DNA from: a virus
Virus record (IMG/VR): IMGVR_UViG_3300017697_000111
Coordinates: 1-22,405 of that record
Reading direction: 5' to 3' (one strand)
DNA length: 22,405 nucleotides
The translations under genes were made by a program, and so were the position numbers. Position 1 is the stretch's first letter; the number at the start of each line of letters is the position of its first letter. The notes under the pieces are model-generated. The model made no database searches. It had not been told where the DNA came from and was given only the letters and a program-made list of their open reading frames with translations. Below, one piece after another: positions 2,188-22,405 of the stretch.

Positions 2188-2195
2188 TATAAATA
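2188..2195 (+). promoter_or_regulatory. T4-type late promoter for the plus-strand HNH-like gene
   Basis: An exact TATAAATA lies on the plus strand, five bases upstream of the ATG at 2201. With T4 spacing (element at -13 to -6), the predicted start falls on the A of that ATG, so the mRNA would be leaderless. It is divergent from the sheath promoter about 45 bp away. Confidence 0.55.
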
Positions 2196-4786: not shown

Positions 4787-4789
4787 AAT

Positions 4790-6326: not shown

Positions 6327-6594
6327 CGTCACAATACCTCTTACATATACTAGGAGCTTGTTCTGGTCTATTTATTAGTGTATCAAACCAAGTTTGCCAT
6401 TCTTCCCCCTCGACAATATCCTCAATCCTTTCTACATTACTAACTTTCATACTGTCCTTATAGAATCGAGATATCTCTTTTTCTTCTTCTTCAGAACGAG
6501 TTCTTTGTAAACCACAGCATGGTAGCAGATGACCTGTGGCACAAAAAAATACATCGTTTCCATTTTCTCTAAGACAACGGGGATTAAGTGTCAT
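6319..6594 (-). CDS. SPASM-like cysteine-rich partner of radical SAM protein (copy 1)
   Basis: A 91-residue protein shaped like a stand-alone SPASM/twitch auxiliary iron-sulfur domain. Cysteines are at 7, 18, 26, 27, 84 and 88 in the arrangement C..C-ATGHLLPCC...ICKRYC. SPASM domains normally sit at the C-terminus of radical SAM enzymes and hold auxiliary 4Fe-4S clusters. Here the domain is a separate gene whose ATG overlaps the TGA of the radical SAM gene (ATGA at 6591-6594), so the two proteins are probably made together and form one enzyme. It is clearly related to the protein at 14485-14805: same AxGxLLPCC core, same IED(I/V) segment before a Trp, and same C-terminal CxxYC. The substrate is unknown. 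Confidence 0.75.
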   Translation of the reverse strand: MTLNPRCLRENGNDVFFCATGHLLPCCGLQRTRSEEEEKEISRFYKDSMKVSNVERIEDIVEGEEWQTWFDTLINRPEQAPSICKRYCDDE

Positions 6595-7277: not shown

Positions 7278-7278
7278 A

Positions 7279-8055
7279 CTACTCGTCCACTCCTTGGAAG
7301 AATGAAGATGTTTCATTAAATCCAAAGTCATCATCAGCATCAGCTGTAGTAGGATTAGGTGTAACAACAAGTCTTTGCTCTCTCTTAGGAGCAGTGTCCT
7401 TGAGGTCTGTAAACTGATCAACCTGTACAGTCTTAATAATAGATTGTGAGGTAACAGGTCCATACAGATAGAATTTTGCTGTAAAACTCAATGTATAAAT
7501 TAAGGATCGTCTTGCTGTAAAGTCTCCTTCATAATCATCTTCATAGGAAATACTATTCAAGACTATAGGAACATCTCGTTTAATTCCCATCTCAGCCATA
7601 TCATTGATTGTCAAAGTATAGTCTGGTTGGAAGTATGGTAAAATTTGTTCAACAATCTGTAATGCATCGTCAGAATTTTTTGCGAGTACATACAATTCAA
7701 ATCCAACATTATATGGTACTGGCATAAATTGTGTTTCAAGAGATTTGCCTTGAGTACCAGATTTTGTCTTTTTAAATTGTTGAATACGATTTAGTTTTCT
7801 TGATGGGTCATATGAAAGACCATTGATTTCAAAACCAATTCGTGGCAATGTAACCGCAACCTGTTTTGTCAAGTTTGGGTCTTCAGCAAGACGAACCAAA
7901 AATTTCTGCCTCGGACCATAAGCCAAAGGAACTTTCATTGATTGAACTACTTTACCATCGCTGTCTTTACGAACCAACGATATATTATTGAACATTGTAC
8001 CGAATGCAACAACCACTTTTCTGATTGTCTCATGGTAATATTGTGTGCCTAACAT
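7279..8055 (-). CDS. 15: Tail terminator / sheath stabiliser gp15 (T4-like)
   Basis: Hexameric protein that caps the tail tube and sheath and connects the tail to the neck. It has 258 residues, close to T4 gp15 (272). The signature IVEQILPYFQP at 134-144 is essentially identical to T4 gp15. The N-terminus LGTQYYHETIRKVVVAFGTMF parallels the T4 start, MFGYFYNSSFRRY. It also shares the KRDVPIVLNS segment and the C-terminal ITYTLSF-type strand. The last 50 residues are acidic and apparently disordered. Its ATG overlaps the gp14 stop by one base (TAATG), and it follows gp13-gp14 as in T4. Confidence 0.93.
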   Translation of the reverse strand: MLGTQYYHETIRKVVVAFGTMFNNISLVRKDSDGKVVQSMKVPLAYGPRQKFLVRLAEDPNLTKQVAVTLPRIGFEINGLSYDPSRKLNRIQQFKKTKSGTQGKSLETQFMPVPYNVGFELYVLAKNSDDALQIVEQILPYFQPDYTLTINDMAEMGIKRDVPIVLNSISYEDDYEGDFTARRSLIYTLSFTAKFYLYGPVTSQSIIKTVQVDQFTDLKDTAPKREQRLVVTPNPTTADADDDFGFNETSSFFQGVDE

Positions 8056-9063: not shown

Positions 9064-9879
9064 TTATCCTATCATGTAGTTAACTGGCAATTCAAAATGC
9101 AATTGAATTTGTTCTTCTAACTTAGTAATCTCTTCTTGTGCTTGTGAATAAATTTCGCCCCCATTCATAGTAACTCCACCAAGCATTTCTACTCCGCTGA
9201 ACTTAGATAAATTTGCACCCCACTGTCTTTTAATGAGAGCAGATGTATATCGTTTCAAATACATGTCATTAAAAATATCTGTAAATTGTGTCGGGTCAAG
9301 TTTTCTGTAACACTCTATGACAATGAACTCATCTACATGAATATCATTGTTCCAATCCATATCCAGATAGAGTCTCTGTTGGTGTTGACTAAAACGAATT
9401 GGAACCTCACCAACCAAAATATGCTCTAAAAAGTCAAGATGCTGAAGCGTCATTTGGTATTCCATAATAGAAGTGGATGAAAAATCATACAAGTCATTCA
9501 ACCTCAGCTGATACCTTAGATCAAACATATTTGACGTAGAACTATCTGTAAAAGGGAAAACTTGTACAACTGAAATAACTGCATCGGGTGTAGGTATATA
9601 TCCTGCTCCATCAAGCCAAGTAGCTGTTACTGAATTATCAACGGTATCAGTTGCAGATGAGGTGTTATCAGTTACAGCTCGATCAATATCTGCCTGTGTT
9701 ATCTGGTGTTTTAGATAGACACGCTCAATTCCATCGTAATGATACTCAGCAAAAAATTGAAGTGCCTCATCAATACGGTCATCAACCTGATCATCAGACA
9801 CGTTAATGTCGATCACACCGAAACCTAGTGACCTGAGACAGTATGATTTAAGTGTAGCTTTTGTTGCTGGAATTGCCAT
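9064..9879 (-). CDS. 13: Neck protein gp13 (T4-like)
   Basis: Neck protein that binds the portal after packaging and prepares the head for the tail. It has 271 residues against 309 in T4. The N-terminal segment from LRSLGFGVIDINV to AEYHYDG (16-50) matches T4 LRRLGAPIINVELT...GEYHFDG. The C-terminal MLGGVTMNGGEIYSQAQEEI parallels MLPGGVTIDGQRLIEEA. ATG 9879 has a strong AAGGAG at 7-base spacing and an exact late promoter just upstream, marking the return from accessory genes to virion genes. Confidence 0.93.
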   Translation of the reverse strand: MAIPATKATLKSYCLRSLGFGVIDINVSDDQVDDRIDEALQFFAEYHYDGIERVYLKHQITQADIDRAVTDNTSSATDTVDNSVTATWLDGAGYIPTPDAVISVVQVFPFTDSSTSNMFDLRYQLRLNDLYDFSSTSIMEYQMTLQHLDFLEHILVGEVPIRFSQHQQRLYLDMDWNNDIHVDEFIVIECYRKLDPTQFTDIFNDMYLKRYTSALIKRQWGANLSKFSGVEMLGGVTMNGGEIYSQAQEEITKLEEQIQLHFELPVNYMIG

Positions 9880-9900: not shown

Positions 9901-9908
9901 TATTTATA
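9901..9908 (-). promoter_or_regulatory. T4-type late promoter for neck genes gp13-gp14-gp15
   Basis: Exact TATAAATA on the minus strand (plus strand TATTTATA). The element uses the last codons of the acetyltransferase gene: its TAA stop at 9906-9904 lies inside the motif. With T4 spacing, transcription starts near 9895, leaving about 16 bases including the Shine-Dalgarno before gp13. The position, ahead of the first virion gene after the accessory island, makes it a convincing late promoter. Confidence 0.75.
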
Positions 9909-10398
9909 AGTATTTAGATGCGATACAGTTTGGACCATACTGCCCATCTTCAAACCAATCAGATTGTTGAACAAATCCGACACTTTTATATGCCGCTAAC
10001 GCACTTTCTCTAGGAACTGTCCACATCCAGTGGCCACCTTTGCGTTTTGCGTATTCTAAACACCAAATTAACACCACACTAGAATATTTTTGTCCTCTAA
10101 AATTTGGATGAACCCATAATCCTCTTGATCTCCAATACTTAAACATACCTTGAGTATTACTATAATAACAACTGTTCACTGCAACTAACTCTTGTCCAGA
10201 CCTAATACCAATAAATGTAGGTTCGACTTCTTTGGCCATTTGTTTGTCTTTACCAAGTTTTCTCTTGCTCCGAACTACGGACCATTCCCATGTCCACTCA
10301 TTTGCTTTTGCAACTCCATTCTTCTTGTCAGGCCACAGTTCTTTCTCCCATACCTCTTTGATTTCCTCGAAACTTATTTCCTCGACAAAATCAAGCAT
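9904..10398 (-). CDS. GNAT-family N-acetyltransferase
   Basis: A 164-residue protein with the GNAT core. GLWVHPNFRGQKYSSVVL (93-110) is the motif A strand and pyrophosphate-binding loop (R/Q-x-x-G-x-G/A class, here NFRGQKY). AAYKSVGF (135-142) is motif B near the C-terminus. Such enzymes move an acyl group from acyl-CoA to an amine or hydroxyl. An upstream ATG at 10455 is in frame, but the start at 10398 overlaps the glycosyltransferase stop by only 8 bases and has GGAAGGG about 10 bases before it. It is the last gene of the accessory chain and could acetylate a sugar or peptide amine made by it. The substrate is not evident. Confidence 0.8.
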   Translation of the reverse strand: MLDFVEEISFEEIKEVWEKELWPDKKNGVAKANEWTWEWSVVRSKRKLGKDKQMAKEVEPTFIGIRSGQELVAVNSCYYSNTQGMFKYWRSRGLWVHPNFRGQKYSSVVLIWCLEYAKRKGGHWMWTVPRESALAAYKSVGFVQQSDWFEDGQYGPNCIASKYL

Positions 10399-11092
10399 TG
10401 TTTTTGAACCCTTCCCATTCGTGTGGTTTGTTGAAACGGTGTGAGAAGTGAACAAACTTTATGTCAGGATGAAACTCATCACCCAAACATATATAATCGT
10501 TTCCAGTTATCTCTCTATATTTTCTTGTTAGCTGAACATTAAATTTCATCATGCTCTTTCCGTAGATTATGTCTTCACCAGTTACCCAACGAGTAAACCA
10601 TTGAGGTGGTAATACTGTTAGTTTTAATTTCTCCCTAACTGAGTCCTCAACAAAATATTGCTCTCCATTTACAGGACCATTTGTTGTACCATTCAGAATA
10701 TAATACCTCTGCCAGTGTTTCATATCTTTCATGAATTTCTCATAGATGTATTCGCAGTCGGTTGGGTAGTATTTGAAAAACCCACCGTTTATTTTGTAAC
10801 CTTCCTTATCGGTATCTCTCCACCAACCTGGCATCGCAGCAAATTCACCCCGCTCGATAGGGAACTCAAATATTTTCTTGTAATCATTTATGAGCAGCAT
10901 GTCAATGTCAATTACACAAACAGGTTCATCAATGCCTGTATGCATAGCGTACATCTTGTTCCATTGCAACTCTACCTCTGGATGATAGGGTTCTCGTATC
11001 CAGACTATTTCGTAGTCTGAAAGTTTTTTCTCCAAGTATGTTTCGTATTCCGGCCCATACTTGTCACCGATTCTAACTGCAAATATCTTCAT
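10391..11092 (-). CDS. Glycosyltransferase, GT-A fold (copy A)
   Basis: A 233-residue protein resembling nucleotide-sugar-dependent GT-A (GT8-like) glycosyltransferases. The N-terminal strand MKIFAVRIGDKYGPEY is followed by the acidic metal motif VIDIDMLL (Asp62, Asp64; D-x-D). An aromatic MPGWWRD (87-93) and KINGGFF (100-106) follow where acceptor or sugar contacts occur in the family. The C-terminal FVHFSHRFNKPHEW may hold the metal-coordinating His. The ATG overlaps the TGA of the preceding oxygenase (ATGA). It shares the GDKYGxEY start and the D-x-D and GWW arrangement with the protein at 17246-18088, so the two probably descend from one ancestor. The target could be a virion protein, host surface glycan or island product. 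Confidence 0.75.
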   Translation of the reverse strand: MKIFAVRIGDKYGPEYETYLEKKLSDYEIVWIREPYHPEVELQWNKMYAMHTGIDEPVCVIDIDMLLINDYKKIFEFPIERGEFAAMPGWWRDTDKEGYKINGGFFKYYPTDCEYIYEKFMKDMKHWQRYYILNGTTNGPVNGEQYFVEDSVREKLKLTVLPPQWFTRWVTGEDIIYGKSMMKFNVQLTRKYREITGNDYICLGDEFHPDIKFVHFSHRFNKPHEWEGFKNNA

Positions 11093-11907
11093 GTTGCGTA
11101 AGGAAAAATCATTTTTGATTTTATCATGTCCATAGGCTGTACTCCAAAGTATTTATTCTGTTTCCAATCATCACCATCTTTTTCAAACCAAGGAATGAAT
11201 GCAGCGACAATGTGAATTCTTGGTTTAGTTCCACCACCTGTATCTCTAACTCTATGTTTTATTCTTGTGTTCCACATATAAGCTTTACCTACCTCTAAGT
11301 GTTTTGTTAGTGTCAAAGAATTACCGTAATCATCTGTTCCATCAATCTCCAAAATATAAGATGGTTCCGTAACCAGTGGAATATTAAATCTTATCGAACT
11401 CCACAAAACTTCATCTATATGCCAAGACTGTTTGTGGCCAGGATAAGACCACATAACTCTAGACCTAGTTGGAAGCAAATCTACACAATCTAAAAATTTA
11501 TCATAATATTTTTTCACCACTGGATGAACTTCAGAAAAACCATATGTATCATAATAGGTATCTCTGTCAGATTCCCAAGGAGGATTTGGATTGTTCATTC
11601 GAGAATAAGCCCAGTTTAATTTTGGATGACCAAGACTTGCATATGGACTTTGTAAGTGTTCGTCACCGTTTGGATTCACACAGATACTAAACCCTCTATA
11701 TTTCTCTGCCTCTTTGTTATCCCTTTGCCATCCTTTGATGCCACCAATCTCATCCACAATTTTTAAAGTTTGTTTGTGCAACTCATTTGCAGTCGGTAGA
11801 CCCAATTCTTCCAAGGTAAACTCTAGAAAGTTTTCATCTAGTTTTTCTTTGTAATAATCAAAAGCATTATACTTATGATTTAATTCTGTAAATTTATCAT
11901 TTAACAT
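11089..11907 (-). CDS. Aspartyl/asparaginyl beta-hydroxylase-like 2OG-Fe(II) oxygenase
   Basis: A 272-residue protein with a C-terminal jelly-roll oxygenase domain. Iron ligands are visible as WHIDE (His163, Asp165) and KHRVRDTGGG (His218), with Arg230 in KPRIHIV as the 2-oxoglutarate anchor. SSIRFNIPLV and YMWNTRIKHRV are the strands typical of the Asp/Asn hydroxylase family. The N-terminal 140 residues are unlike any domain I know and may bind the substrate. It overlaps its neighbours by 11 and 4 bases. It would hydroxylate a peptide side chain or a small molecule; the substrate is unknown. Confidence 0.8.
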   Translation of the reverse strand: MLNDKFTELNHKYNAFDYYKEKLDENFLEFTLEELGLPTANELHKQTLKIVDEIGGIKGWQRDNKEAEKYRGFSICVNPNGDEHLQSPYASLGHPKLNWAYSRMNNPNPPWESDRDTYYDTYGFSEVHPVVKKYYDKFLDCVDLLPTRSRVMWSYPGHKQSWHIDEVLWSSIRFNIPLVTEPSYILEIDGTDDYGNSLTLTKHLEVGKAYMWNTRIKHRVRDTGGGTKPRIHIVAAFIPWFEKDGDDWKQNKYFGVQPMDMIKSKMIFPYAT

Positions 11908-13234
11908 ATTTGTCTTTCGTAGGTTTTGTACCTCTCAAGTAATAGTGTTGAGTGTGTGTATCCAATAGTTCAATTAGTTTATTAAAACTTTTAATCAAGT
12001 CTGGAAAGGTATAACAAACATGAGATACATGATAGCCGTATATGTTACTAATATCCATGAACACCCGTTTATCTTTGATTTTTTCCACGAACCATTTGTT
12101 CCCAACAAGGCAGCTATCTATAACATCAAATACTTTATACTCTATATCACATTCTTCGTACATATTCAGTTGTAGTTTCCTTAGCTCCTCATGAGTTCCA
12201 AAGGTCATACCTCGTTTTTTCAATTCATCTGTGTGTGGTATATCCCCACCATAATCATTAAAAATAAACATCTGTGTTTCATTTTTTGAATATAATTTTA
12301 TATCACCCATAGTCATATTCATTTCAACTATATTTTGTTTTATATCTATATTTTCACTACAATAATCATAGAATACAATATCACCATCAAAATTTAACCT
12401 ATCAGCAAATACCTCACCACTATATCCAGCTGTAGGAGTAATAATTAAATTAAACTCATCGTCAGGAAGTTTACCTAAATTTTCCGTATTCTCTACATAA
12501 AACGTTTCATACATCCTAGTCATCAATATTTTAAAGTAATTGTCAGTCATATCTAACTGATCACGCCAACCAAAGGTTCTATCTACTGCGATATTCCAAT
12601 TTAGATCGTGAAGTTTTTTACGATCTTCCATATGACCATAAGACCAAGCTTTATGTTTTCTTTCTCCAACAGAAAAATTTGTGATAGTAGGAAACCCTGA
12701 TACTTTTAATGTAGATGGTGTGTAGTCATCATGAAAATTATCAGACGATCTTGTGTATTTTTCCCATTTATTTTGAAGGTTGGGTTTTCCTTTCCTCCTC
12801 CAAATATCAAGATTTAATTCTATATGTTGATAATGTAGAAACGCTGGTTTATTTGGATGTGCAATTATATGAGCTCTACAAAATTCATCACCCTTAGTCC
12901 ACTCACAAAAACTTTCAATTGATGTTGGATAGTTTACCATATCAAAAACCATACCAGTAGAAACAATCATGGCATGAGTATAATCATCACAAGTTTCTAA
13001 CACATCATATAGTTCTGTCAGATAACATATTTTCTGATCATGACCTGTCCCTGCTCCAGTGAAACCACCAGAGGTTTGTAGCAATGTTGTTTGCAGTTGT
13101 TTTTCTGATCCAAAATTCCAACCCAAATTTTCTGGATGCACAACAATGAAAACCAAATGTTCAAAACCTTTTTTGATTTTTATCTTGTTTGTTTCATTTA
13201 ACCAAAGGTCTTTAAATTCCTCAAAGTTTTTCAT
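11897..13234 (-). CDS. Unknown 445-residue protein of the accessory island
   Basis: I do not recognise this protein. The first half has strands and loops loosely like a GT-A glycosyltransferase (LVFIVVHPENLGWN near the start, THAMIVSTGMVFDM, then AHIIAHPNKPAFLHYQ) but no D-x-D where a metal site would be. The second half has a Rossmann-like pattern (FNLIITPTAGYSG, GDIVFYDYCSENIDI) that could be a degenerate SAM-methyltransferase-type domain. These resemblances are weak and by eye only. An ATG at 13261 is also possible, but the start at 13234 overlaps the upstream radical SAM gene by only 14 bases. No signal peptide or membrane span is seen. Tight overlap on both sides says it belongs to the same pathway. 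Confidence 0.7.
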   Translation of the reverse strand: MKNFEEFKDLWLNETNKIKIKKGFEHLVFIVVHPENLGWNFGSEKQLQTTLLQTSGGFTGAGTGHDQKICYLTELYDVLETCDDYTHAMIVSTGMVFDMVNYPTSIESFCEWTKGDEFCRAHIIAHPNKPAFLHYQHIELNLDIWRRKGKPNLQNKWEKYTRSSDNFHDDYTPSTLKVSGFPTITNFSVGERKHKAWSYGHMEDRKKLHDLNWNIAVDRTFGWRDQLDMTDNYFKILMTRMYETFYVENTENLGKLPDDEFNLIITPTAGYSGEVFADRLNFDGDIVFYDYCSENIDIKQNIVEMNMTMGDIKLYSKNETQMFIFNDYGGDIPHTDELKKRGMTFGTHEELRKLQLNMYEECDIEYKVFDVIDSCLVGNKWFVEKIKDKRVFMDISNIYGYHVSHVCYTFPDLIKSFNKLIELLDTHTQHYYLRGTKPTKDKYVK

Positions 13235-14492
13235 AATAGGGTTTCCATTCGGGAAACACATCAGTCAAACATGTTCCCCGAAACTTGTCTCGTTTTGCAA
13301 CATCAATCATCATTTTTTTATGTAGTTTCTCATCCCACTCCATATCAGTAAGATAATTAGCCAACTTCATAAACGTTTTTGTGTGATGCGGTTTTACTAA
13401 AGTATAAATTCTTTCAAGATATTGTTCTCTAATATCTAATGGAACTGCCGTAACAATATACAAATTGTCTCCACCAAACACAAGACTACCAGTAGCAAAA
13501 TTATTATAGATATCTGGCTCCTGTTCTTGTAAAATATCTACACCGTCTGCCACCTCATTCAAATAACCAATATTAAGAGAGCTAACACAAGTAGCAAATA
13601 ATATCCTAGTGTCAGGCATCTTTGAGAATCGTCCTACGTTCTCCATTATTTTTTCCCACTTTGACGGGAACCTTATGTAATTATTTTTATCTCCCCAACA
13701 CTCCACCGAAATGTTCATCTGACAACCATTGAACTCTGGAACATAATTAAATATGTCACCTAACTTACCCATCTCTGGAGTTAAAGTTGCATTTGTGGTT
13801 ATGGTAAGATGCATGTTTTTCGCAACACCCATCTCAATAGCTTTGTCCATCATTTCATAATTTTGAGGCAATGCTAACGTTTCACCACCTACGAGTTTCA
13901 TTTGAACAGCTGTCTCTAACACCTCCTCGAACTTTGTCATATCATCTTCTTCATTAACCCAAGTTCTACCTTTGAGCCAAGAACTGCTAGCACCTTTACC
14001 CTTATCAATACCTATCGCTTTGTTTTCTCTCGCATATGTTGAAGAGTTAAACGGGCCGCACATATTACATTTCAGATTACAAAAATTATTTGGAGCATTA
14101 TATTCCATAGTTAAGTAAAATGGTTCACTGTGATCTGTATCAATATACTCCTCTAATTTTTCTAAATGTTCTCTGTGTTCACCATGATTTTCATCAAACT
14201 TGTCAAGGTACATAATCCTATGACTTTCTGTAGCAGAGTGTTTTTCTTGTTCTTTACAAACTTGACAATACTTATCTTGCAACGGGCCACCACCAGTAAG
14301 AAACTCTTTCCGAAAATCTTTCATCAATTGAGATTCGTGCAAAGCCTTTGGACCAATAATTCCTTCATTTACTAAATGTCTACTTGGCCACTCTTTTAAA
14401 ACACAACATGGTTTAGATGAACCGTCTTGTGTAGAAACAGTATTCATAAATGGTTGAGGACAAAACCACTCTAAGTCTGTTAATTTAGTCAT
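13221..14492 (-). CDS. Twitch/SPASM radical SAM protein
   Basis: A 423-residue enzyme with both auxiliary and radical SAM regions in one chain. The N-terminal 85 residues carry Cys11, Cys29-Cys30, Cys76 and Cys79 (a C..PCC..CQVC pattern), a twitch/SPASM-like cluster site placed before the core. The radical SAM core follows with CNLKCNMC (Cys138, Cys142, Cys145) and GGETL (202-206), the SAM-binding GGE motif. TITTNAT and NISVECWG are typical later strands. Proteins of this layout are common in marine phages; their reactions are not known to me. The ATG overlaps the stop of the SPASM-like gene by 8 bases, so three radical-SAM-related genes are read in a row. Confidence 0.87.
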   Translation of the reverse strand: MTKLTDLEWFCPQPFMNTVSTQDGSSKPCCVLKEWPSRHLVNEGIIGPKALHESQLMKDFRKEFLTGGGPLQDKYCQVCKEQEKHSATESHRIMYLDKFDENHGEHREHLEKLEEYIDTDHSEPFYLTMEYNAPNNFCNLKCNMCGPFNSSTYARENKAIGIDKGKGASSSWLKGRTWVNEEDDMTKFEEVLETAVQMKLVGGETLALPQNYEMMDKAIEMGVAKNMHLTITTNATLTPEMGKLGDIFNYVPEFNGCQMNISVECWGDKNNYIRFPSKWEKIMENVGRFSKMPDTRILFATCVSSLNIGYLNEVADGVDILQEQEPDIYNNFATGSLVFGGDNLYIVTAVPLDIREQYLERIYTLVKPHHTKTFMKLANYLTDMEWDEKLHKKMMIDVAKRDKFRGTCLTDVFPEWKPYYEKL

Positions 14493-14805
14493 GAACTTCT
14501 ACCTCTCTAGTTCCTTTATCATCACTACAATATTTCATACAGATTTTAGGAACAGATGTTCCCTTGGTTAGTCCATTAAAAAAATCAAGCCATTCTGTTG
14601 ACAGTATAATATCTTCAATCGTATCGACATTTTCTATTTTTAATTCTTCTTTAAACAAATCGTCCATACCGTCCATGTTTCCATCGTAGTTTGATTTTAA
14701 TTTTCGCAAGGGGTCTGTCCAACAACAGGGTAATAGATATCCCTCAGCATTTAACGCAAACGATTTACCTTTAGCACATTTTGGTTTAAGCACAATTATA
14801 CTCAC
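14485..14805 (-). CDS. SPASM-like cysteine-rich partner of radical SAM protein (copy 2)
   Basis: A 106-residue protein with cysteines at 10, 27, 28, 89 and 93 in the pattern C-A(x)GYLLPCC...ICMKYC. It is homologous along its length to the 91-residue protein at 6319-6594, and like it directly follows a radical SAM core gene. It begins with GTG at 14805, overlapping that gene by 20 bases. The most likely role is to supply auxiliary iron-sulfur clusters to the separate core. One cysteine of copy 1 (position 18) is Leu or Asn here, so the number of clusters may differ. The C-terminal 12 residues are extra and charged. Confidence 0.75.
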   Translation of the reverse strand: MSIIVLKPKCAKGKSFALNAEGYLLPCCWTDPLRKLKSNYDGNMDGMDDLFKEELKIENVDTIEDIILSTEWLDFFNGLTKGTSVPKICMKYCSDDKGTREVEVHD

Positions 14806-15373
14806 TTGGTTTGTATTGATCGTCTGGACCAGACCACCGTGAAGACTTGTTTATATGAATAGGAATTTTGTGACGTTGAGCAAGGTCTATAGCTTCTGGT
14901 ATGTCATTCTCATTATACTTAAAAATTATATACTGCCACCTAATATCATTACCAAGTTCAACACCAGTTTTCATCACATTAAACAAATATTCACCATTCT
15001 GATTTATCCTGTATTTAGGACTGTCCTGTGGAAGCCCATCAATACCGAACTCCCATGTGGCATTTTTATTTGCGAGAAATGCATCTCTATACCAATCCAT
15101 AGGTTTATGAGAAGCAGCAGTATGTACAAAGACTCTTTTATCTTTGGTAAGCTCAAGAAACTCTATGAACTGTGGGTGAAAGATTGGGTCAGATATTTGA
15201 CCACAAAATTCTATCTGATCAAAATGACTTATGATCTTCTTGAAACTATCTAAAGATAAATCACCAAGATTGTTAGTGGGAACAGAACGTCTAAGACACT
15301 TTGGACATTCTAATGTGCATCGGTGGGTTATATCAAGGTTGATACTTTTTCTATCTAGTATGGTTGAAAGCAA
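14786..15373 (-). CDS. Radical SAM core protein (split enzyme, copy 2)
   Basis: A 195-residue radical SAM domain with CTLECPKC (Cys19, Cys23, Cys26). It shares long stretches with copy 1: TNNL after the cluster, ISDPIF, HTAASHK, FGIDGLP-DS-KYRINQ and FKYN-NDI. Copy 1 runs about 40 residues further at the C-terminus. The start is probably TTG at 15373: an in-frame TAA lies two codons upstream and no ATG or GTG lies before the cluster motif. The weak start and 23-base overlap with the oxygenase gene suggest translation by coupling. It lacks a fused SPASM domain, which follows as its own gene. Confidence 0.83.
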   Translation of the reverse strand: MLSTILDRKSINLDITHRCTLECPKCLRRSVPTNNLGDLSLDSFKKIISHFDQIEFCGQISDPIFHPQFIEFLELTKDKRVFVHTAASHKPMDWYRDAFLANKNATWEFGIDGLPQDSPKYRINQNGEYLFNVMKTGVELGNDIRWQYIIFKYNENDIPEAIDLAQRHKIPIHINKSSRWSGPDDQYKPSEYNCA

Positions 15374-15863
15374 TGCTTATTCTCTTTTTGTTACTTTCAT
15401 TCGGTTCTACTGAATGGAAACAGTCGGAAGGAAATAACAACAGCCTGTTTGTTTTAGGACTAAACTTTTTAGGTGGATCATAAAGAGTTGGATTTGATCT
15501 CATTACTGTGCCTTGAAAAACAACATCGCCCATATTATCCTCTGGAACAGAAACATAAAAGATGCCACTAACTCCTATTGGCTCTGCTGGTGGAGTTCTG
15601 TCATAATGATCATGTGTGGTATTTGAATGACCATTTCCGTTTACATTGATCCACCAGTGAACCATATTCACTGTATTGTCTATTAAATGCACATAATGAT
15701 CAATACATTTCTTGAGAGAATCTGGCATGTCTTCTGGTTCAAAAAGTGCGCTTTGATATCCACCTTTGTTAGATTTAACTCGGCCGATCTGTGTGTAGTC
15801 TCCAACAATTCGTGTCATAGTATCTGTATAGTCAGGTAGTTTTACTGTGTAGTCTTTAATCAT
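15351..15863 (-). CDS. 2OG-Fe(II) oxygenase, small phage type
   Basis: A 170-residue double-stranded beta-helix oxygenase. The iron site is NTTHDHYD (His84, then Asp85 or His86) and LLLFPSDCFHSV (His150). Arg161 in KKRISIAFN would bind 2-oxoglutarate. GVSGIFYVSVPEDNMGDVVF is the hallmark strand pair of the putative 2OG-Fe(II) oxygenase family that is frequent in marine T4-like phages. The length suggests a minimal catalytic domain. It overlaps the hydroxylase-like gene by 8 bases, so two different oxygenases are translated back to back. It would hydroxylate a protein side chain or metabolite; the substrate is unknown. Confidence 0.85.
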   Translation of the reverse strand: MIKDYTVKLPDYTDTMTRIVGDYTQIGRVKSNKGGYQSALFEPEDMPDSLKKCIDHYVHLIDNTVNMVHWWINVNGNGHSNTTHDHYDRTPPAEPIGVSGIFYVSVPEDNMGDVVFQGTVMRSNPTLYDPPKKFSPKTNRLLLFPSDCFHSVEPNESNKKRISIAFNHTR

Positions 15864-16548
15864 TTAATTCCCTCAATACATCCTTACCAAACTGTTTAAC
15901 CATAGACCGTTTCATTAACTCAATTCTTTCTTTGTTTGATCCACCGTGGACAATAAAGTGAAAACGATTTTCATCAGAGCTGTTTAGTGCCTCATGTGTT
16001 ACACCATTATCAAACCAAAATCCTGTGCAGTTTTCAAATGGTAGTTCTTCCTTTGTGTCTACTCTTCGTAGATAACAATTGTCTGGCTGGTAGATTGCAA
16101 GATTGATTGCAGCAGATATGTTTCTCTGTCTTCCCTCGTTTATTCTTTCATCCCCAGCGTCATGATGTGCAGTGATACTACCGCCTGGTTTTATCAGCAT
16201 GAACCGACAACGCCTATAGTGTTTATGTGGAAAGTCTTCTAGCCATCTCTTCATCTCTGGTGCGACCTCAGCCACTTCAGTCCATCCCCACTTCACTGTA
16301 TTTTCAGAATACCCGTACCCAGACGGGTTCATAGTATTTCTCCATCCAAGTGAAGTATCAGCTTCATCCTCATGAACAAATCCATGTATAGATGCTGACC
16401 ACCACTCATCACCATCCTGTAGTCGATGCGGTACAAAGAACCCCTCGTCATAAACTGCCTGAGCTTCTTTGATGATAATCTCTGGTATCTCTAGATCAAT
16501 TTTTAAATACCATATATCATTTTTTCTACACCACTGAACAGGATTCAT
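15856..16548 (-). CDS. Asp/Asn beta-hydroxylase-like 2OG oxygenase
   Basis: A 230-residue protein. The catalytic half has RFMLIKPGGSITAHHDAGDE (His128, Asp130 as the HxD pair), NISAAINLAIYQPDNC, GFWFDNGVTHEALNSS (His185) and Arg195 in ENRFHFIVHGG, the layout of Asp/Asn hydroxylase-type jelly rolls. The N-terminal 110 residues are Trp- and Glu-rich (DEWWSASIHGF, VKWGWTEV) and probably recognise the substrate. Its ATG overlaps the TGA of the methyltransferase-like gene (4 bases). It is distinct in sequence from the oxygenase at 11089-11907, so the island holds three oxygenases of at least two families. Confidence 0.8.
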   Translation of the reverse strand: MNPVQWCRKNDIWYLKIDLEIPEIIIKEAQAVYDEGFFVPHRLQDGDEWWSASIHGFVHEDEADTSLGWRNTMNPSGYGYSENTVKWGWTEVAEVAPEMKRWLEDFPHKHYRRCRFMLIKPGGSITAHHDAGDERINEGRQRNISAAINLAIYQPDNCYLRRVDTKEELPFENCTGFWFDNGVTHEALNSSDENRFHFIVHGGSNKERIELMKRSMVKQFGKDVLRELND

Positions 16549-17252
16549 CTACCAATCACCATAAATCTTGTACTCTTATTAGAGAGAATTTTTGATCCAG
16601 AATATATTACATGCTTAATTCTAGCCTGATCAATCAGTTCGTCCTCTGATTCAACACAATTTATATGATCTTCGTGTTGATCATCATTTGATGACTGCAA
16701 CACAAGCAAGGGATTTTTCTGCACTGCATTGTTTAGTTCTCTAAATTTCCACATAGGATACATGTGTTCACAAGCACAGTTTATAACAACATCATAGATA
16801 TCGTCCTTTGGTATTGGAGTGTTAGGGTTTTGTACAAACTTGAGAGGTTTAATCATCACGTTTCTCATATTAATTTTGTATCTATTTTCATCCTTATATC
16901 GTTTATTGAACTTGTAACTTATAGGTGCTACATCATTATCAATCTCAAAATTTTCAATCCACTCACACTTCGGAAATGTATCGAACATGAGAGGAACAAT
17001 ATATTGAGCAAACCAACCAGCAAGTAGAGCTACTCTTTTCGGTTGCACATCAAATTTTTCTAATGTCTCTACCAACCAAATTTTACTTTCTAATTGAGAA
17101 GCGTTCATACTGTCAAAAACTCTTTTTGTCAAGTATTGATAATTTCCAGCTTCTAAATTCACGCCAGCTGAGATTGCGTTCTTCCAATCCTCTGCTAATT
17201 TTGGTCTAAATTCTAAATGCACGTTATGACCCTCCGCTGCAATTGCTACCAT
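16545..17252 (-). CDS. Class I SAM-dependent methyltransferase-like protein
   Basis: A 235-residue protein with a Rossmann methyltransferase pattern. Strand 1 is KRVALLAGWFAQYIV, where the usual GxGxG is degenerate. Next come WIENFEIDND, with the acidic residue that binds the ribose, and IYDVVINCACEHM as strand 4. LLVLQSSND and FMVIGR form the final strands. The degenerate glycine loop means cofactor binding is not assured. ATG 17252 overlaps the glycosyltransferase stop by 7 bases. A sugar or peptide methyl transfer in the island pathway is plausible; no acceptor can be named. Confidence 0.6.
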   Translation of the reverse strand: MVAIAAEGHNVHLEFRPKLAEDWKNAISAGVNLEAGNYQYLTKRVFDSMNASQLESKIWLVETLEKFDVQPKRVALLAGWFAQYIVPLMFDTFPKCEWIENFEIDNDVAPISYKFNKRYKDENRYKINMRNVMIKPLKFVQNPNTPIPKDDIYDVVINCACEHMYPMWKFRELNNAVQKNPLLVLQSSNDDQHEDHINCVESEDELIDQARIKHVIYSGSKILSNKSTRFMVIGR

Positions 17253-18088
17253 AATGATTTTAGCTCCTCAACATCATTTGTATCTGCACTGTTGTTGAAC
17301 AAGCAGATTTTATGATCTGGCCTTAATTTTTTTTGTTCCATGTCTGAGGGAAAAATGTTACCTGTATAATATGAATAAATGTCTCCTTTTGGAAATACAT
17401 TAAAGAAACTTTCATCTGTCCGACCACTATCTTCATACCACATATTATACCAAAAGTGATTAAGATAATTATCAATGGTAGGATATGTAAAAAATAAAAC
17501 GTCTAAGTTCTTAGCAATGTGTTTGTATATCTCTATGAGTTGTCCTCTATTCCATCGAATGACAGATGAATTTATAGGAGTTGATCCCATAGCAGCATAG
17601 TTCTTACGACACAAATTCATATCGTTCCACCATCCCCTAACGATCCACGGTTTACCATGTACAGCGGTGACTTTAGTCTCTGCTGTCCATGATTGTTTCA
17701 TATCAAGATCAAAGAAATATTTTAGGTCTTGGTGGATGATAACGTCTAAGTCGAGATAAAGAAAATTATTTCCCTGTATAGTTTTAAAATCTCTTTCAGA
17801 TTCATTCCATCCACCTGTAGATGTGTAATAATCAAGTTGAAACATGTAGAGTTTTCTGTATGCCCACATGTTAGAAGGAGCCTGTTTATTACGAAATCTA
17901 CTATGCAAACCTTCGTACTTATCCCAAGATGAAGGAAGCAGTATATCATAATCTTTTTCTTTTTTGTCAGTGAGACAGTAAAAGTTGAAAGGGACTGAGC
18001 AGTTATCTTCACACTGTTGTTTCAACTTCTCCACATATTCTCGGCCGTACTTGTCTCCCCACTTAACGCATAATATTGTATTATCCAT
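17246..18088 (-). CDS. Glycosyltransferase, GT-A fold (copy B)
   Basis: A 280-residue protein. The N-terminus MDNTILCVKWGDKYGREYVE matches the start of the glycosyltransferase at 10391-11092. FLYLDLDVIIHQDL gives the D-x-D metal site (Asp113, Asp115). WIVRGWWNDMN and NSSVIRWNRG follow as acceptor-side motifs, and FFTYPTIDNYLNHFW lies in the position of the donor-specificity helix. An ATG at 18121 is in frame, but 18088 overlaps the SGNH gene by only 8 bases, has GGAGAG close upstream, and gives the conserved N-terminus. With copy A it would supply two sugar-transfer steps. Confidence 0.75.
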   Translation of the reverse strand: MDNTILCVKWGDKYGREYVEKLKQQCEDNCSVPFNFYCLTDKKEKDYDILLPSSWDKYEGLHSRFRNKQAPSNMWAYRKLYMFQLDYYTSTGGWNESERDFKTIQGNNFLYLDLDVIIHQDLKYFFDLDMKQSWTAETKVTAVHGKPWIVRGWWNDMNLCRKNYAAMGSTPINSSVIRWNRGQLIEIYKHIAKNLDVLFFTYPTIDNYLNHFWYNMWYEDSGRTDESFFNVFPKGDIYSYYTGNIFPSDMEQKKLRPDHKICLFNNSADTNDVEELKSLW

Positions 18089-18764
18089 AAATCTCTCCGT
18101 ATCTTTTATATATAATGTCACTTACATGGTCATGATCATCTTGGGTTGGGTGGCCGTTGTCAGGACAATCAACAATCTCAAAGAAATTAAATCCGCCCAT
18201 AGATTGCAGAAATGGCCAACCAATAATATTCTGATTATCCAAATCCATTAATGGTTTATATTGTAACATCAGCTTTGCTATGTCTTTAGAAACAAGCGGC
18301 ATACATCGTATTAAACTTGCTATTTGCAAGTATGGTATTTTCTTATCTCTACAAAAACTGGACAAAGACAACATATTTCTAATGCCTTTTTCAATCATGT
18401 ATCTTGGGTATTTACGAGATTGAGTTACATTTCCAGCAGATTTTAAATTTGTTTTCACATCCACAACATTGTAATCACCAAAAGGACATTCTGGTTGGGG
18501 GGTATCAATAAAAGGCACTACTGAAGCATCAAGAGATATTGTCCTATCAAATCCAGACCATGCAGATACGACCAAACCTATATTTTTACTTTCATATATC
18601 GTGTCAATGGTTATATCATGAATGTACTGATTACTTGCTCCACCTCTACCAATATTAATAAAATCCATATCTAATTTTTCTGCAAGAAGTTCTGGCCAAA
18701 ATTTTAGGTCTTGAAATTTGTTTTTAGTAAAACTACAACCAGATGCAATGAGTAATTTTCTCAT
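18081..18764 (-). CDS. SGNH/GDSL-like hydrolase (copy 1)
   Basis: A 227-residue alpha/beta protein of SGNH type. KLLIASGCSFT puts the nucleophile at Ser11. NIGRGGASNQYI has the Gly and Asn45 of the oxyanion blocks. PDNGHPTQDDH near the C-terminus gives the D-x-x-H pair (Asp202, His205). Members are esterases, or acyltransferases that add or remove O-acetyl groups on sugars. I chose the ATG at 18764, next to an in-frame GTG at 18767, because it overlaps the stop of the tiny upstream gene (TGATG) and gives the usual short start before the first strand. It is paralogous to the protein at 18846-19649. No signal peptide is present, so it acts in the cytoplasm or on the virion. Confidence 0.7.
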   Translation of the reverse strand: MRKLLIASGCSFTKNKFQDLKFWPELLAEKLDMDFINIGRGGASNQYIHDITIDTIYESKNIGLVVSAWSGFDRTISLDASVVPFIDTPQPECPFGDYNVVDVKTNLKSAGNVTQSRKYPRYMIEKGIRNMLSLSSFCRDKKIPYLQIASLIRCMPLVSKDIAKLMLQYKPLMDLDNQNIIGWPFLQSMGGFNFFEIVDCPDNGHPTQDDHDHVSDIIYKRYGEIYG

Positions 18765-18871
18765 CACTCATCTTTCTCGTATATGAAGTTATGGGGTTCA
18801 GGCAACTTTCTTCTCATGATAACAGTTGACCAGAAAAGTTTCAACCTAAGAATAATTCTTTTTATAACCAT
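18764..18871 (-). CDS. 35-residue mini-protein linking the two SGNH genes
   Basis: A short frame runs from an ATG at 18871 to a TGA at 18766-18764. The start lies inside the end of the first SGNH gene, and the stop shares its A with the ATG of the second (TGATG). The frame fills exactly what would otherwise be the only real gap in the accessory chain. The protein starts MVIKRIILRLKLFWSTVIM, a basic, hydrophobic stretch that could bind a membrane. It ends RRKLPEPHNFIYEKDE, a proline-containing acidic tail. Small phage proteins with a similar hydrophobic start and acidic tail are familiar in this group, but I can name no function. It may instead serve only to couple translation. Confidence 0.5.
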   Translation of the reverse strand: MVIKRIILRLKLFWSTVIMRRKLPEPHNFIYEKDE

Positions 18872-19649
18872 CTAACAATATCTCCATAATATATTCATGA
18901 CCCATTTCATTTGGATGGGTATCTTTTTTAGTTATCCTCATCTTATTTCTTGATGGGTCTTTTTGGTCCATTAGATAATCCCAACACCAACCGCCAATAT
19001 GTTCTGATATGGGCCAACCAAGAAATGTTGTATCTTCAATCAAAGAGAGGTACGGACTATTTATAAGTTCTTTCCCAAACCTCTGCATGTCTGTTATTGT
19101 ATCACCATCAGCATTAGGGTAACAAGCTTGAAAATGTAGGTGAGGAATTTTTAGAGATGTACAAAGAGACTGAAAATTGTAAATATATCTAAGTGTCTTT
19201 TGTGTTCCAGCAGTCAAATCCATCAAATGATACTTATCAAATATTTCAGAAATCTTGAAAGCTTTACCCTCTCGAAAGGTGTTTATCTCTACGTCACTTT
19301 TATTTTCGACCTCTTCTATTTTCCTACCAGGCTTGAAACTTTCCCATTGATGTTGATATACAGCCATCCTTCGATTGTATACCTCTGCAAAAAAACTGGT
19401 CCGTTCAACCTCTGACCAACCAACAACCACCAACCCAATATTTTTAGTGCTGACTATCTCATCAGTCACCTTGCTCCAAATCGCTTCGTTACCATCTCCA
19501 CAGTTGCCAAGATTCACTAACTCCATGCCAAGTTTATCAGCAAGAAGTTCAGACCATATAGGAAATTGTTGAATGTGAATTTTCATTGCGTAGTTGTCAG
19601 TATAACTGCAACCAGCAACTATAAGTTTTTTCTTAGAAAATAGCGACAT
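18846..19649 (-). CDS. SGNH/GDSL-like hydrolase (copy 2)
   Basis: A 267-residue protein. KKKLIVAGCSYTDNY places the nucleophile at Ser15. LVNLGNCGDGNEAIW carries the Gly and Asn54 of the oxyanion hole. VVVGWSEVER is the strand that follows, and KDTHPNEMGHEYI near the C-terminus supplies Asp243 and His245. The order and spacing match the neighbouring copy, with an extra helical insertion of about 40 residues after the GWSEVER strand. Its ATG overlaps the carbamoyltransferase stop by 17 bases. Two paralogues side by side suggest different substrates or a heteromer. It could edit acyl groups on a glycan, or be a non-hydrolytic SGNH-fold acyltransferase. Confidence 0.7.
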   Translation of the reverse strand: MSLFSKKKLIVAGCSYTDNYAMKIHIQQFPIWSELLADKLGMELVNLGNCGDGNEAIWSKVTDEIVSTKNIGLVVVGWSEVERTSFFAEVYNRRMAVYQHQWESFKPGRKIEEVENKSDVEINTFREGKAFKISEIFDKYHLMDLTAGTQKTLRYIYNFQSLCTSLKIPHLHFQACYPNADGDTITDMQRFGKELINSPYLSLIEDTTFLGWPISEHIGGWCWDYLMDQKDPSRNKMRITKKDTHPNEMGHEYIMEILLDGYKKNYS

Positions 19650-20997
19650 TATATAATTTTGAAAACTCCTTAGCGTCTTCCCAAGTATTCACCATTGGCT
19701 TACCCTTTATATTTAGGGAGGTATTCAGAAGCATTGGACAACCCGTTCGTTCATGCCACTCTTCTAGAACTTGTCTTATTAAGGATGAACAATCTTTTTT
19801 TACCACTTGAACTCTTGCAGTACCATCAACGTGTGTGACAGAACTGTAATCATGTTTTGCCTTGGCGACAAACTGCATATACTCGTTCATCGGTCCTTCA
19901 AAGTATTTGTCTGCATACTCCTCTAATATGGCAGGAGCAAAGGGACGGAACTTTTGTCGCCTCTTGATATCGTTCACAGTGTCCTTGATATCGTATCTTG
20001 GATCACCAAGTAGAGAACGATTACCTAGTGCTCGTGGACCAAACTCTGCTCTACCACTTGCAAAACCACACACTTTATTGTCCAACAATTCTTGCACAAC
20101 GTTGCTGACATTAACTGGATTGAAAATTGGAGTTCCAAGATATGGATTTTCCCATTTTAATTTTTGTTTTCTAACCAATGCAGCTGCACCCAATGCACTA
20201 CCCGCATCGCCTGGCGCAGGCATTATCCAAATGTTTTTCCCTTTAATCTTTGAATTTGCAACACAGTTCAAGGCACACCCACCCATGATGACTAAGTTTT
20301 CATGTGGACACATCTCTACCAGTTTAATCAACTCCCTCTCGTACAACGATTGTACGGACGCTGCGAGGTCTTCTGAGCGTGCTTTTGGAAATATGTTGCC
20401 AACACCCTTATGGTTGTTTTCCCATAACTGATCTTCCAAATTATATTTGGGTTCACCAAACGCAGCCATACCCATCGTGATATATTCATCTTCGTTAGGT
20501 TTCAGACCTATACGGTGTGTGATTGCTGAATAGAGAAGTCCAAGAGAATGTGGATATTTCCACGAAGTTATTTTTTTAAGAGTGTGAGTTGTGTGACCTA
20601 AATGTTTTTTCTCTGTGGTTGCTTTCCATATAGACATGGTATCCCACTCACCGATTGCGTCAATGACTAAGATGTTACAGTCATCAAAAGGAGAAGTGTA
20701 ATAACCAGCAGCTGCGTGAGATTCATGATGACCATAACACTCGTTATATGGCATACGAACTTTTTGCCATTTCTGTCCCGCATACAAACGTCTTAAATTT
20801 TTACGAAAGGGTTTTTCGTAATATGCAATTACATCAGGTTTATATCTTTGTGTTTTGGGAAGTTGGTCAGAATGAATCCACTTATCATTCTTAACCCCAC
20901 TAAACCTTTCGGCTTGAGAGGCAAATATTATTCTGTTGTTTCTTAGAACGCATACTGCTGCGTCATGAAACCCTTCTGAAATTCCTAATATATTCAT
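19633..20997 (-). CDS. NodU/CmcH-family O-carbamoyltransferase
   Basis: A 454-residue enzyme that would make carbamoyl-adenylate from carbamoyl phosphate and ATP and transfer the carbamoyl group to a hydroxyl, as TobZ, NodU and CmcH do on sugars and antibiotics. The N-terminal Kae1-like domain starts MNILGISEGFHDAA and has the metal-binding HHESHAAAGYY (His90, His91, His94). APGDAGSALGAA (261-272) is the nucleotide site. The YrdC-like C-terminal part begins with GRAEFGPRALGNRS (315-328), the family signature, then FRPFAP and LNTSLNIKGKP. It is about 100 residues shorter than TobZ but has all core motifs. It is the first gene of the overlapping chain and has no Shine-Dalgarno; a -35/-10-like element lies just upstream. 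Confidence 0.92.
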   Translation of the reverse strand: MNILGISEGFHDAAVCVLRNNRIIFASQAERFSGVKNDKWIHSDQLPKTQRYKPDVIAYYEKPFRKNLRRLYAGQKWQKVRMPYNECYGHHESHAAAGYYTSPFDDCNILVIDAIGEWDTMSIWKATTEKKHLGHTTHTLKKITSWKYPHSLGLLYSAITHRIGLKPNEDEYITMGMAAFGEPKYNLEDQLWENNHKGVGNIFPKARSEDLAASVQSLYERELIKLVEMCPHENLVIMGGCALNCVANSKIKGKNIWIMPAPGDAGSALGAAALVRKQKLKWENPYLGTPIFNPVNVSNVVQELLDNKVCGFASGRAEFGPRALGNRSLLGDPRYDIKDTVNDIKRRQKFRPFAPAILEEYADKYFEGPMNEYMQFVAKAKHDYSSVTHVDGTARVQVVKKDCSSLIRQVLEEWHERTGCPMLLNTSLNIKGKPMVNTWEDAKEFSKLYNVAIF

Positions 20998-21039: not shown

Positions 21040-21636
21040 TTAAAAGAAAGATGCGTATGCTTTTATCGCCTCCACAGGAGTTTCTGCCTTACGAATTTCA
21101 GTTTTTGCTTTTCGTTTCTTACTGCTCTTGACAGCATCTTGTTCAAACATTTTCAATTTCATCTTGAACAATACTTCTTTGTGTTCAGTATTATCGGGAT
21201 CAAAATCAAAAATAACATTCAAACTACCTTGACTTTCATCTTGGTTCTGACCAGCATCTAATCCATGGCCATACATATTATTCTGTGTGGCATAACGATG
21301 AAACGCATCTCTGAACTCTTGTCTTGTATTTTCATTTTTGTTACGAGTACACTCATCAATTGCTTCATAGGAAAATTCTTCTAACAATGCTGCAAGTCTT
21401 TCATCATTTTCAGCAACACTAATATTATAAACAGTTGCAACCAACTCACCACCATTAGGTGTGACTCCATCGGCGGCCGTGTGATGGCCATCGTCTGGAA
21501 CTTCATAGTTGTGTATAACACAAATATTGTCTAGTGCAGCGCTGGTATAGTATGCTTCAATAATCCTTCCCACAAATGGAAACTTAGGTTCCCCATCTGC
21601 AAAGTATGCCGCACTCTCTTTTCCTGTAAATGCCAT
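21040..21636 (-). CDS. Unknown 198-residue phage protein
   Basis: Not recognised. It starts MAFTGKESAAYFADGEPKFP after a clear GGAG at 6-base spacing. The first 80 residues are beta-rich, with a His/Gly loop (DDGHHTAADG). The middle is helical, with LLEEFSYEAIDECTRNKNEN. Residues 130-150 are Asn/Gln/Asp-rich, and the last 45 are very lysine-rich (KSSKKRKAKTEIRK). There is no signal peptide or membrane span. It follows the structural gene by 20 bases and precedes the island by about 40, so a virion or assembly role is possible, but nothing in the sequence proves it. Confidence 0.65.
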   Translation of the reverse strand: MAFTGKESAAYFADGEPKFPFVGRIIEAYYTSAALDNICVIHNYEVPDDGHHTAADGVTPNGGELVATVYNISVAENDERLAALLEEFSYEAIDECTRNKNENTRQEFRDAFHRYATQNNMYGHGLDAGQNQDESQGSLNVIFDFDPDNTEHKEVLFKMKLKMFEQDAVKSSKKRKAKTEIRKAETPVEAIKAYASFF

Positions 21637-21656
21637 TGTCTTCTCCTACCTCCTAT

Positions 21657-22405
21657 TTAGGAGTAATGTATCCGTAAATTATATAGACTGATATTCTGGG
21701 CCGTTCCATTCGGAAATTCTTGTGACCGATAATCATCAATGTTAACCTGTAACTGAGCATATAAACCAGCACCGTCCAATTTAGTATCTGTCATCGTAGA
21801 ACCACGAACCGAACCACTTCCACTTGTTCCAACATTATAAGATATTTTATATCCACTAGTATCATGAGCAGCAGTAAATCTCAACCAATCACCCACTAGA
21901 GTATTGATATCACTAGCAGCAAATTCTTGTAAATTGTTTGAGCCATTAATATATAACGGTATTCGTGCTGGAGTATTATCAGTACCGTCCCTTCTATGAA
22001 GATAATAATTTGTGATAGTAGATGGTTGATCCAACGTTTCTGGAATACCAGCAGCAGAATATGAACCTGTATCTGCTCGTGTATCTGTAAAGATTGCTGT
22101 ATCATCACCAGAAACTTTTGTATAGTTTGATGCAGCGGTAGCAGAGGCGGTGACTGTATATGTTCCAGCAGTCGCAGCAGATTCAGTGGAAGAGGACATA
22201 GTTATAACCGCTGGATATATAAAAGTATCCAAAAAGTCAGTTAGGTTCATTGCCCTGATCGCACCAGTACTGTTATCATAATAAACAGGAAAAGAAGTTC
22301 CTGTATCAGTTGTATGGCCAATACTACCACTTGCCGTGTATGCAAGGTTAACTTTATCATATGAGACTGTAACGGTTGCAGGCTCAGCAGTGCCACTCGC
22401 ATACA
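21657..22405 (-). CDS. Beta-rich structural-type protein, N-terminus outside window
   Basis: The frame stays open from the TAA at 21657 through the right edge (at least 248 residues). The internal ATG at 22250 is not the start, because the 51 codons upstream are open and read as protein of the same composition (for example TSFPVYYDNSTGAI). The sequence is rich in Thr, Ser, Gly, Ala and Asp with few charged helices, contains FIYPAVITMSS and TYTVTASATAA, and ends in ISLYNLRIHYS. It therefore looks like a beta-sandwich or fibre-like virion protein such as a tail-fibre or whisker-type component. I cannot assign it to a T4 gene. It is the most upstream gene of the minus-strand run visible here. 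Confidence 0.6.
   Translation of the reverse strand, partial: YASGTAEPATVTVSYDKVNLAYTASGSIGHTTDTGTSFPVYYDNSTGAIRAMNLTDFLDTFIYPAVITMSSSTESAATAGTYTVTASATAASNYTKVSGDDTAIFTDTRADTGSYSAAGIPETLDQPSTITNYYLHRRDGTDNTPARIPLYINGSNNLQEFAASDINTLVGDWLRFTAAHDTSGYKISYNVGTSGSGSVRGSTMTDTKLDGAGLYAQLQVNIDDYRSQEFPNGTAQNISLYNLRIHYS

Follow-up and report, generated by a model that had tools for sequence, protein, structure and literature searches.

A conserved gene core with exchangeable add-ons before gp13 of marine T4-like phages, a candidate operon for glycan assembly and capping

Marine T4-like phages commonly encode glycosyltransferases and 2-oxoglutarate (2OG) oxygenases, for which alteration of the host O-chain, modification of DNA, a part in nitrogen signalling and a role as stuffer DNA have all been proposed. 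Between VrlC and gp14, pelagimyophages carry a hypervariable host recognition cluster (HRC) that includes glycosyltransferases and radical S-adenosylmethionine (SAM) cassettes (Zaragoza-Solas et al., PMC7029224, on part of which we draw here and below), and mycobacteriophages bear glycans on virion proteins, with capsid and tail tube as acceptors (Freeman 2023, cited in the part of PMC12619734 used here). Here we analyze a cassette of 14 enzyme genes at 9904-20997 on the minus strand of a 22,405-base stretch of DNA (the window), which is the whole of IMG/VR virus record IMGVR_UViG_3300017697_000111. Gene order and content place the cassette in the published HRC, a hypervariable site, so its location is not a surprise (PMC7029224). 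Comparison of related loci divides the 14 genes into a conserved core and exchangeable add-ons rather than one fixed pathway, because the accessory genes move independently. Our leading reading, to which we give a probability of roughly 0.45, is a late-expressed operon for glycan assembly and capping in the HRC of a marine T4-like phage, with a virion protein of the tail-fiber or neck region as its most likely acceptor. The cassette genes, lettered N (first transcribed) to A, and their boundaries are as follows.

19633..20997, minus strand: N, O-carbamoyltransferase of the NodU/TobZ type, accessory (Pfam PF16861 1e-49, PF02543 1e-42, phrog_1601 1e-89)
18846..19649, minus strand: M, SGNH-hydrolase-like protein 2 with GCS...DTHP motifs, DUF6071-like, accessory (motifs; under Pfam cut-off)
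18081..18767, minus strand: L, SGNH-hydrolase-like protein 1, accessory (motifs; weak DUF6071 match under Pfam cut-off)
17246..18121, minus strand: K, GT-A/GT8-like glycosyltransferase, core (invariant LDLD as DxD; GT8 match weak)
16545..17252, minus strand: J, class I SAM methyltransferase fold, core (AlphaFold2 (AF2) model and Foldseek)
15856..16548, minus strand: I, 2OG oxygenase of the Asp/Asn beta-hydroxylase type, core (PF05118 6e-9; HxD...H intact in alignment)
15351..15863, minus strand: H, 2OG-Fe(II) oxygenase, accessory (PF13759, phrog_81)
14786..15373, minus strand: G, stand-alone radical SAM core-domain protein with CTLECPKC, accessory (TIGR04317 3e-12, under cut-off)
14485..14805, minus strand: F, SPASM/twitch-like mini-protein, accessory (SPASM-like; encoded separately from G)
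13221..14492, minus strand: E, twitch-domain radical SAM protein, accessory (NF033640 5e-73)
11897..13261, minus strand: D, predicted two-domain protein, GT-A-like plus class I methyltransferase, core (AF2 and structure comparison)
11089..11907, minus strand: C, 2OG-oxygenase-like protein, accessory (invariant WHxDE...H...R; no Pfam match)
10391..11092, minus strand: B, GT-A-like glycosyltransferase, core (invariant DID as DxD)
9904..10455, minus strand: A, GNAT acetyltransferase (PF00583 7.5e-9)
18768..18845, minus strand: 78 non-coding nucleotides (nt) separating M from L, the one junction with a true gap (open reading frame list)
21660..22403, minus strand: 3' part of a fiber-like, Ser/Thr-rich (25%) structural-type protein, 5' end off the contig; homologue in locus L203
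21040..21636, minus strand: gpX, a 198-residue protein, encoded directly upstream of the conserved block in relatives
9901..9908, minus strand: T4-type late promoter motif TATAAATA, start of the gp13 transcription unit (motif match)
9064..9879, minus strand: gp13 neck protein, downstream boundary (identity to cultured relatives)

Querying with D, gp13, J and I yielded 226 usable loci; these fell into 99 groups sharing no identical 150-mer. All five core genes (K, J, I, D and B) occur together in 28 of the 99 groups, in the order K-J-I-D-B in 27 of these 28, and wherever the flanks are present gpX lies upstream (24/24) and gp13 downstream (20/20). Across these groups D is only 28-61% identical to the D of the window. 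In a further 14 groups K, J and B are present while I and D are absent, and 12 of these groups keep the same order; two loci, L019 and L021, are missing the core and keep the fiber gene, gpX, the GNAT gene (A) and gp13. The accessories are far less regular: among the 28 core groups the GNAT gene is found in 18, an SGNH gene in 12, a carbamoyltransferase in 11, E in 10, G in 8, C in 6, F in 5 and H in 2. The preliminary description of this DNA, made without database searches, had asked whether the same ordered set recurs before gp13 in other marine T4-like genomes, and had named single genes in scattered loci as an argument against one pathway. The core does recur in order and is not scattered, whereas the carbamoyltransferase, SGNH, radical SAM/SPASM and 2OG (H) genes move independently of it. 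The proposed joint action of the genes is thereby supported in its core part, by the fixed order despite the divergence of D, by the absence of the core from two loci and by purifying selection.

All cassette genes are under purifying selection, with ratios of nonsynonymous to synonymous substitution (dN/dS) of ~0.02-0.25 at their closest relatives; this range overlaps that of the structural genes (0.03-0.15), which argues against stuffer DNA. The add-on genes appear to move by recombination, since F/G of locus L009 are 96-98% identical to those of the window beside E, K and J at 46-56%. The same locus carries, at L009:7717-7878, a gene H without its middle (~residues 27-141), a recombination scar beside the near-identical F/G. 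The variable genes that relatives carry between gpX and gp13 include two recurrent clusters of ORFs without a match in the window (20 and 18 members, mostly on the reverse strand; for example, L203:16862-17767 and L135:9719-10537), one representative having an APH-type kinase domain. A viral contig of this group also holds a gene for the large subunit (DctM) of a TRAP transporter (L222:13283-14590).

Overlapping homologues of I and D (hhalign E 3e-22 and 5e-17) also lie side by side on the bacterial chromosome of a Halobacteriovoraceae metagenome-assembled genome (MAG; L096), near a GT2 gene, a YdjC-like gene and a NodU-type carbamoyltransferase. This pairing suggests that I and D work together, in a context that would fit glycan chemistry. 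A contig binned as a Flavobacteriales MAG (L095) holds a phage cassette, most genes at 84-95% identity, together with gp13-gp15, and is evidently phage DNA in a bacterial bin.

The layout of the chain was checked against the ORF list. The preliminary description had reported an unbroken chain of 15 genes amid virion genes, each overlapping the next by 1-26 bases and none followed by a terminator-sized gap. A same-strand series of enzyme genes does fill the interval between the gpX and fiber-like genes (21040-22405) and gp13. It comprises 14 ORFs, as against the 15 reported and the 16 to which the accompanying list summed; 12 of the 13 junctions overlap, the M/L junction being the gap listed above, and the overlaps measure 4 to ~65 bases according to the start codon chosen (41 nt for D/E). 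A further 24 nt separate the stop of A from gp13. Tight overlaps of this kind are not special, as accessory genes in the corresponding islands of Pelagibacter phages HTVC008M and Mosig overlap likewise. By its structural genes the source is placed among marine T4-like phages related to pelagimyophages: the terminase (TerL) shares 71% identity with its counterpart in Methylophilales phage Melnitz and 68% with the HTVC008M protein, and gp13-gp18 are syntenic, with 34-71% identity to HTVC008M and Melnitz. The nearest isolates infect SAR11 and OM43. CsgG, a pelagimyophage marker, was found in none of 11 related records, many of them fragments, and is uninformative here. The wider site can be followed in L203, where the C-terminal part of phrog_358, a 1029-residue tail fiber, the fiber-like protein, gpX and the cassette come in this order, with gp13 further on; judging by its length and position we take the phrog_358 part for VrlC, which itself lies off the window's contig.

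To characterize the encoded proteins we combined profile searches, motif conservation and structure prediction. N has both its N- and C-terminal domains (PF02543 and PF16861, above cut-offs), matches the small-molecule O-carbamoyltransferases GdmN, NovN and TobZ in the PDB, and aligns to solved members in its HHESH and C-terminal blocks. D, described earlier as an unknown, is identified as a predicted fusion (AF2 predicted local distance difference test (pLDDT) 80, predicted template modelling score (pTM) 0.83). Its residues 30-250 are GT-A-like, the best matches including LARGE1, GlyE and LH3 (Z 8.0-8.5 by VIA-align; 8.5 for the GT8-type LARGE1/GlyE), and residues 250-454 resemble class I methyltransferases (OvoA Z 10.1, SgvM 9.0, WbdD 8.4, VIA-align). 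At these moderate Z values the fold class is credible, and no specific function follows from it. The gene previously called methyltransferase-like, J, has a class I methyltransferase fold in its model (AF2 pLDDT 78, pTM 0.79; Foldseek E 1e-7 to methyltransferases), with no convincing family match. In C the expected metal and 2OG residues are invariant. Sequence searches of the PDB yielded no usable match for the D, J, I, B and K profiles, and none for the second SGNH protein or the twitch radical SAM protein.

Three radical SAM genes plus a SPASM partner had been proposed; the interval holds two radical SAM genes (13221-14492 and 14786-15373) and one SPASM-like mini-protein (14485-14805). E scores 246 bits against NF033640 (cut-off 170). 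For F, an invariant in-frame GTG overlaps the stop of G, and we rejected programmed frameshifting between the two because this conserved GTG makes translational coupling simpler. A second split radical SAM/SPASM-mini pair, paralogous to G/F, lies between gp15 and gp16 (6319-6594 and 6591-7313) and is also present in L002, L015 and L041.

The T4 late promoter is TATAAATA, and a NATAAATA form occurs in cyanophage S-PM2 (PMC2984593). In 19 of 20 cassette groups the 80 nt preceding gp13 contain exact TATAAATA, and the same holds for gp18 in 12/12 loci. In 11/19 relatives gpX has NATAAATA at promoter distance, whereas none of N, M, K, J, I, D, B and A has exact TATAAATA in the preceding 80 nt in any group with a placeable start. 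Because the motifs mark gp13 and often the gpX of relatives and none is exact at the cassette genes, we infer that transcription of the core would begin at a late promoter at gpX or further upstream and end where gp13 restarts. In some relatives, variable genes between B and gp13 carry late motifs of their own. Candidate sigma-70-like promoters in two non-coding gaps (21031 and 18844) were discarded, the count for the region (79) equalling the shuffled expectation (77.6). Elsewhere in the window, divergent late-promoter motifs (2137-2144, minus strand, for gp18; 2188-2195, plus strand) flank a reverse-oriented, Cys-rich protein of 99 residues (2201-2500) that recurs beside gp17 in many relatives.

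Taken together, the gene content can be arranged into a candidate route. The 2OG hydroxylase I, sometimes with C or H, would create or modify a hydroxyl; K and B, both GT-A enzymes, with perhaps the N-terminal domain of D, would attach a short chain of sugars, using nucleotide sugars of the host; and methyltransferase J and the C-terminal domain of D would cap it by methylation. The exchangeable genes could add carbamoyl (N), acyl or acetyl (A, L, M) and oxidized or epimerized (E, G/F) groups, giving each phage a different variant, and the modified acceptor may alter adsorption or shield the particle. We infer the joint pathway, the sugar substrates, the order of the reactions and, above all, the acceptor. 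Of the products offered in the preliminary description, a sugar decoration is the best fit to two to three GT-A-type domains, two methyltransferase domains, an O-carbamoyltransferase, a GNAT protein and SGNH-like proteins. A secreted compound gains no support, as the cassette encodes no exporter and none of its proteins has a transmembrane-like segment. A Wzx-type flippase (PF01943) was found in none of 10 related records and a nucleotidyltransferase (PF00483) in none of 12, many being fragments, with positive controls matched in both searches; one epimerase gene is present in 4 of 10. Since no transmembrane-like segment, flippase or nucleotidyltransferase was found, export of a polysaccharide made de novo is less likely. 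The nucleotide sugars probably come from the host, which could also supply a flippase.

Several points weigh against a late operon that decorates virion proteins. Most of the related records are fragments, the upstream region of the window's own gpX has only a weak motif, CCTAAATA, and the GT-A-like domain of D is without the usual DxD. The fiber-like protein is not visibly tuned to the core, because in the core-less L019 and L021 it is still ~67-68% identical to that of the window. The published reading of such genes, in the part of PMC7029224 used here, is modification of the host O-chain. This is also the main rival, a possible explanation in which the cassette remodels a host surface glycan (lipopolysaccharide (LPS) or O-chain) during infection, for example blocking superinfection or keeping progeny from sticking to debris. 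GT8-type glycosyltransferases and radical SAM cassettes of the HRC were proposed to act in serotype conversion (PMC7029224), K is GT8-like by a weak match, and the I-D pair of L096 lies near the GT2, YdjC-like and carbamoyltransferase genes named above. The missing flippase and nucleotidyltransferase and the lack of a membrane protein tell against this rival, the promoter layout suggests late expression, a poor fit to superinfection exclusion, and the cassette is closely linked to fiber genes. It is this late-promoter layout and the adjacency to fiber genes that lean us towards a virion acceptor, and a tail-fiber-region protein is slightly preferred. More tentatively, the cassette may represent an unrecognized, widespread late operon that places a short glycan, methylated, carbamoylated and acylated, on tail-fiber-region proteins, with the glycosyltransferase-methyltransferase fusion as its hallmark and the exchangeable add-ons giving a different coat to each phage.

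The remaining explanations are all improbable. 2OG oxygenases and glycosyltransferases are a known pairing in DNA modification, and the oxygenases, glycosyltransferases and carbamoyltransferase might hypermodify the bases of phage DNA, as TET/glycosyltransferase systems do. A phage-borne carbamoyltransferase of N's superfamily does carbamoylate 5-hydroxymethylcytosine (5hmC), and thymidylate-synthase-family genes mark the contigs on which it occurs, whereas carbamoyltransferases adjoining glycosyltransferases were those on unmodified contigs (PMC8670742). In a Pfam scan, H and I of the window match PF13759 and Asp_Arg_Hydrox rather than TET/JBP, and C has no match. Of 11 related records, 10 lack thymidylate-synthase-family genes (the window itself being a fragment), and so do Mosig, HTVC008M and Melnitz. 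DNA modification is disfavored on both grounds and is very unlikely; a TET/JBP search of whole records, in which the controls also gave no match, was not used as evidence of absence. Equally hard to credit is a hitch-hiking variable island without joint function, made up of stuffer DNA or unrelated auxiliary genes. The mosaic accessories of L009 and the loss of the core from L019 and L021 would suit it, and a stuffer role was raised for cyanophage LPS genes (PMC3037559), but purifying selection, intact catalytic motifs and the kept core order speak against it. Least probable of all is a cluster for a diffusible small molecule or a ribosomally synthesized and post-translationally modified peptide (RiPP), even though carbamoyltransferase, radical SAM/SPASM, methyltransferase and GNAT genes form a palette like that of antibiotic clusters. 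No precursor candidate was found among ORFs of at least 40 residues, the size range searched, the 14 ORFs include no exporter, precursor peptide or scaffold-forming enzyme, RiPP-maturase models match far under their cut-offs, and the core is tied to fiber and neck genes; the peptide decoration suggested earlier gains no support from these results.

The cassette is real, under selection and more widespread than the preliminary description could know. Its core, fixed in order between gpX and gp13, selected and flanked by late promoters, turns a loose collection of genes into one testable unit. Should the target prove to be virion proteins, the chemistry of the phage surface would vary among ocean viruses as a trait exchanged horizontally. 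At another spot, between gp16 and gp17 (4154-5920), the window has genes for a cupin and for an AsnB-like protein with a PP-loop (SGGIDSS); the corresponding spot of HTVC008M is occupied by a 2OG oxygenase and a tryptophan halogenase, and it lies within the g15-g18 hyperplastic region known from cyanophages.

Among cultured phages, tblastn found no relative of D or I, and for J and B only Pelagibacter phage Mosig EXVC030M (MT647606). On its VrlC side Mosig carries, in order, a carbamoyltransferase, a J homologue (hhalign E 5e-19), a GT8-like gene and a B homologue (E 4e-13), along with radical SAM, GNAT and 2OG genes; no I homologue was found in it. The GT8-like call comes from Pfam, slightly under cut-off, and this gene (Mosig_00091) matches the K profile only around DxD. 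The likeness lies in the cluster of a carbamoyltransferase, a methyltransferase and two glycosyltransferases, whereas the Mosig version sits between tail fibers and VrlC, on the strand opposite to the structural genes, and is only ~25% identical; before gp13 Mosig has heme-oxygenase-type and 2OG genes. With a diverged version in a cultured phage, the target could be decided by experiment. HTVC008M shares the insertion site before gp13 and has four 2OG oxygenases, but its block lies on the opposite strand with no glycosyltransferase annotated, and it gave no match to cassette genes at E 1e-5. Cyanophages P-SSM2, S-SM2 and S-SSM7 show that large sugar-enzyme clusters occur in marine T4-like phages (with carbamoyltransferases in P-SSM2 and S-SSM7), though near hli03/phoH and tRNAs rather than before gp13 (PMC3037559). 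The 5hmC carbamoyltransferase is likewise phage-borne and of N's superfamily, but is tied to thymidylate synthase homologues (PMC8670742), which almost all records here lack. Mycobacteriophage glycosylation resembles the outcome proposed for the cassette, glycans on virion proteins, in other phages and on other acceptors; the comparison draws on its description (in the part of PMC12619734 used here). The HRC remains the nearest counterpart, an island from VrlC to the neck genes in the same phage family with tail fibers, glycosyltransferases and radical SAM cassettes. It is described as non-syntenic, and neither the K-J-I-D-B core nor the glycosyltransferase-methyltransferase fusion is described for it in the part of PMC7029224 used here, whereas loci of the window's type keep the core order and vary in accessories. 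The kind of island is thus already known, and what is new is the fixed-order core, the fusion, the modular accessories, the late-promoter layout and the cultured relative.

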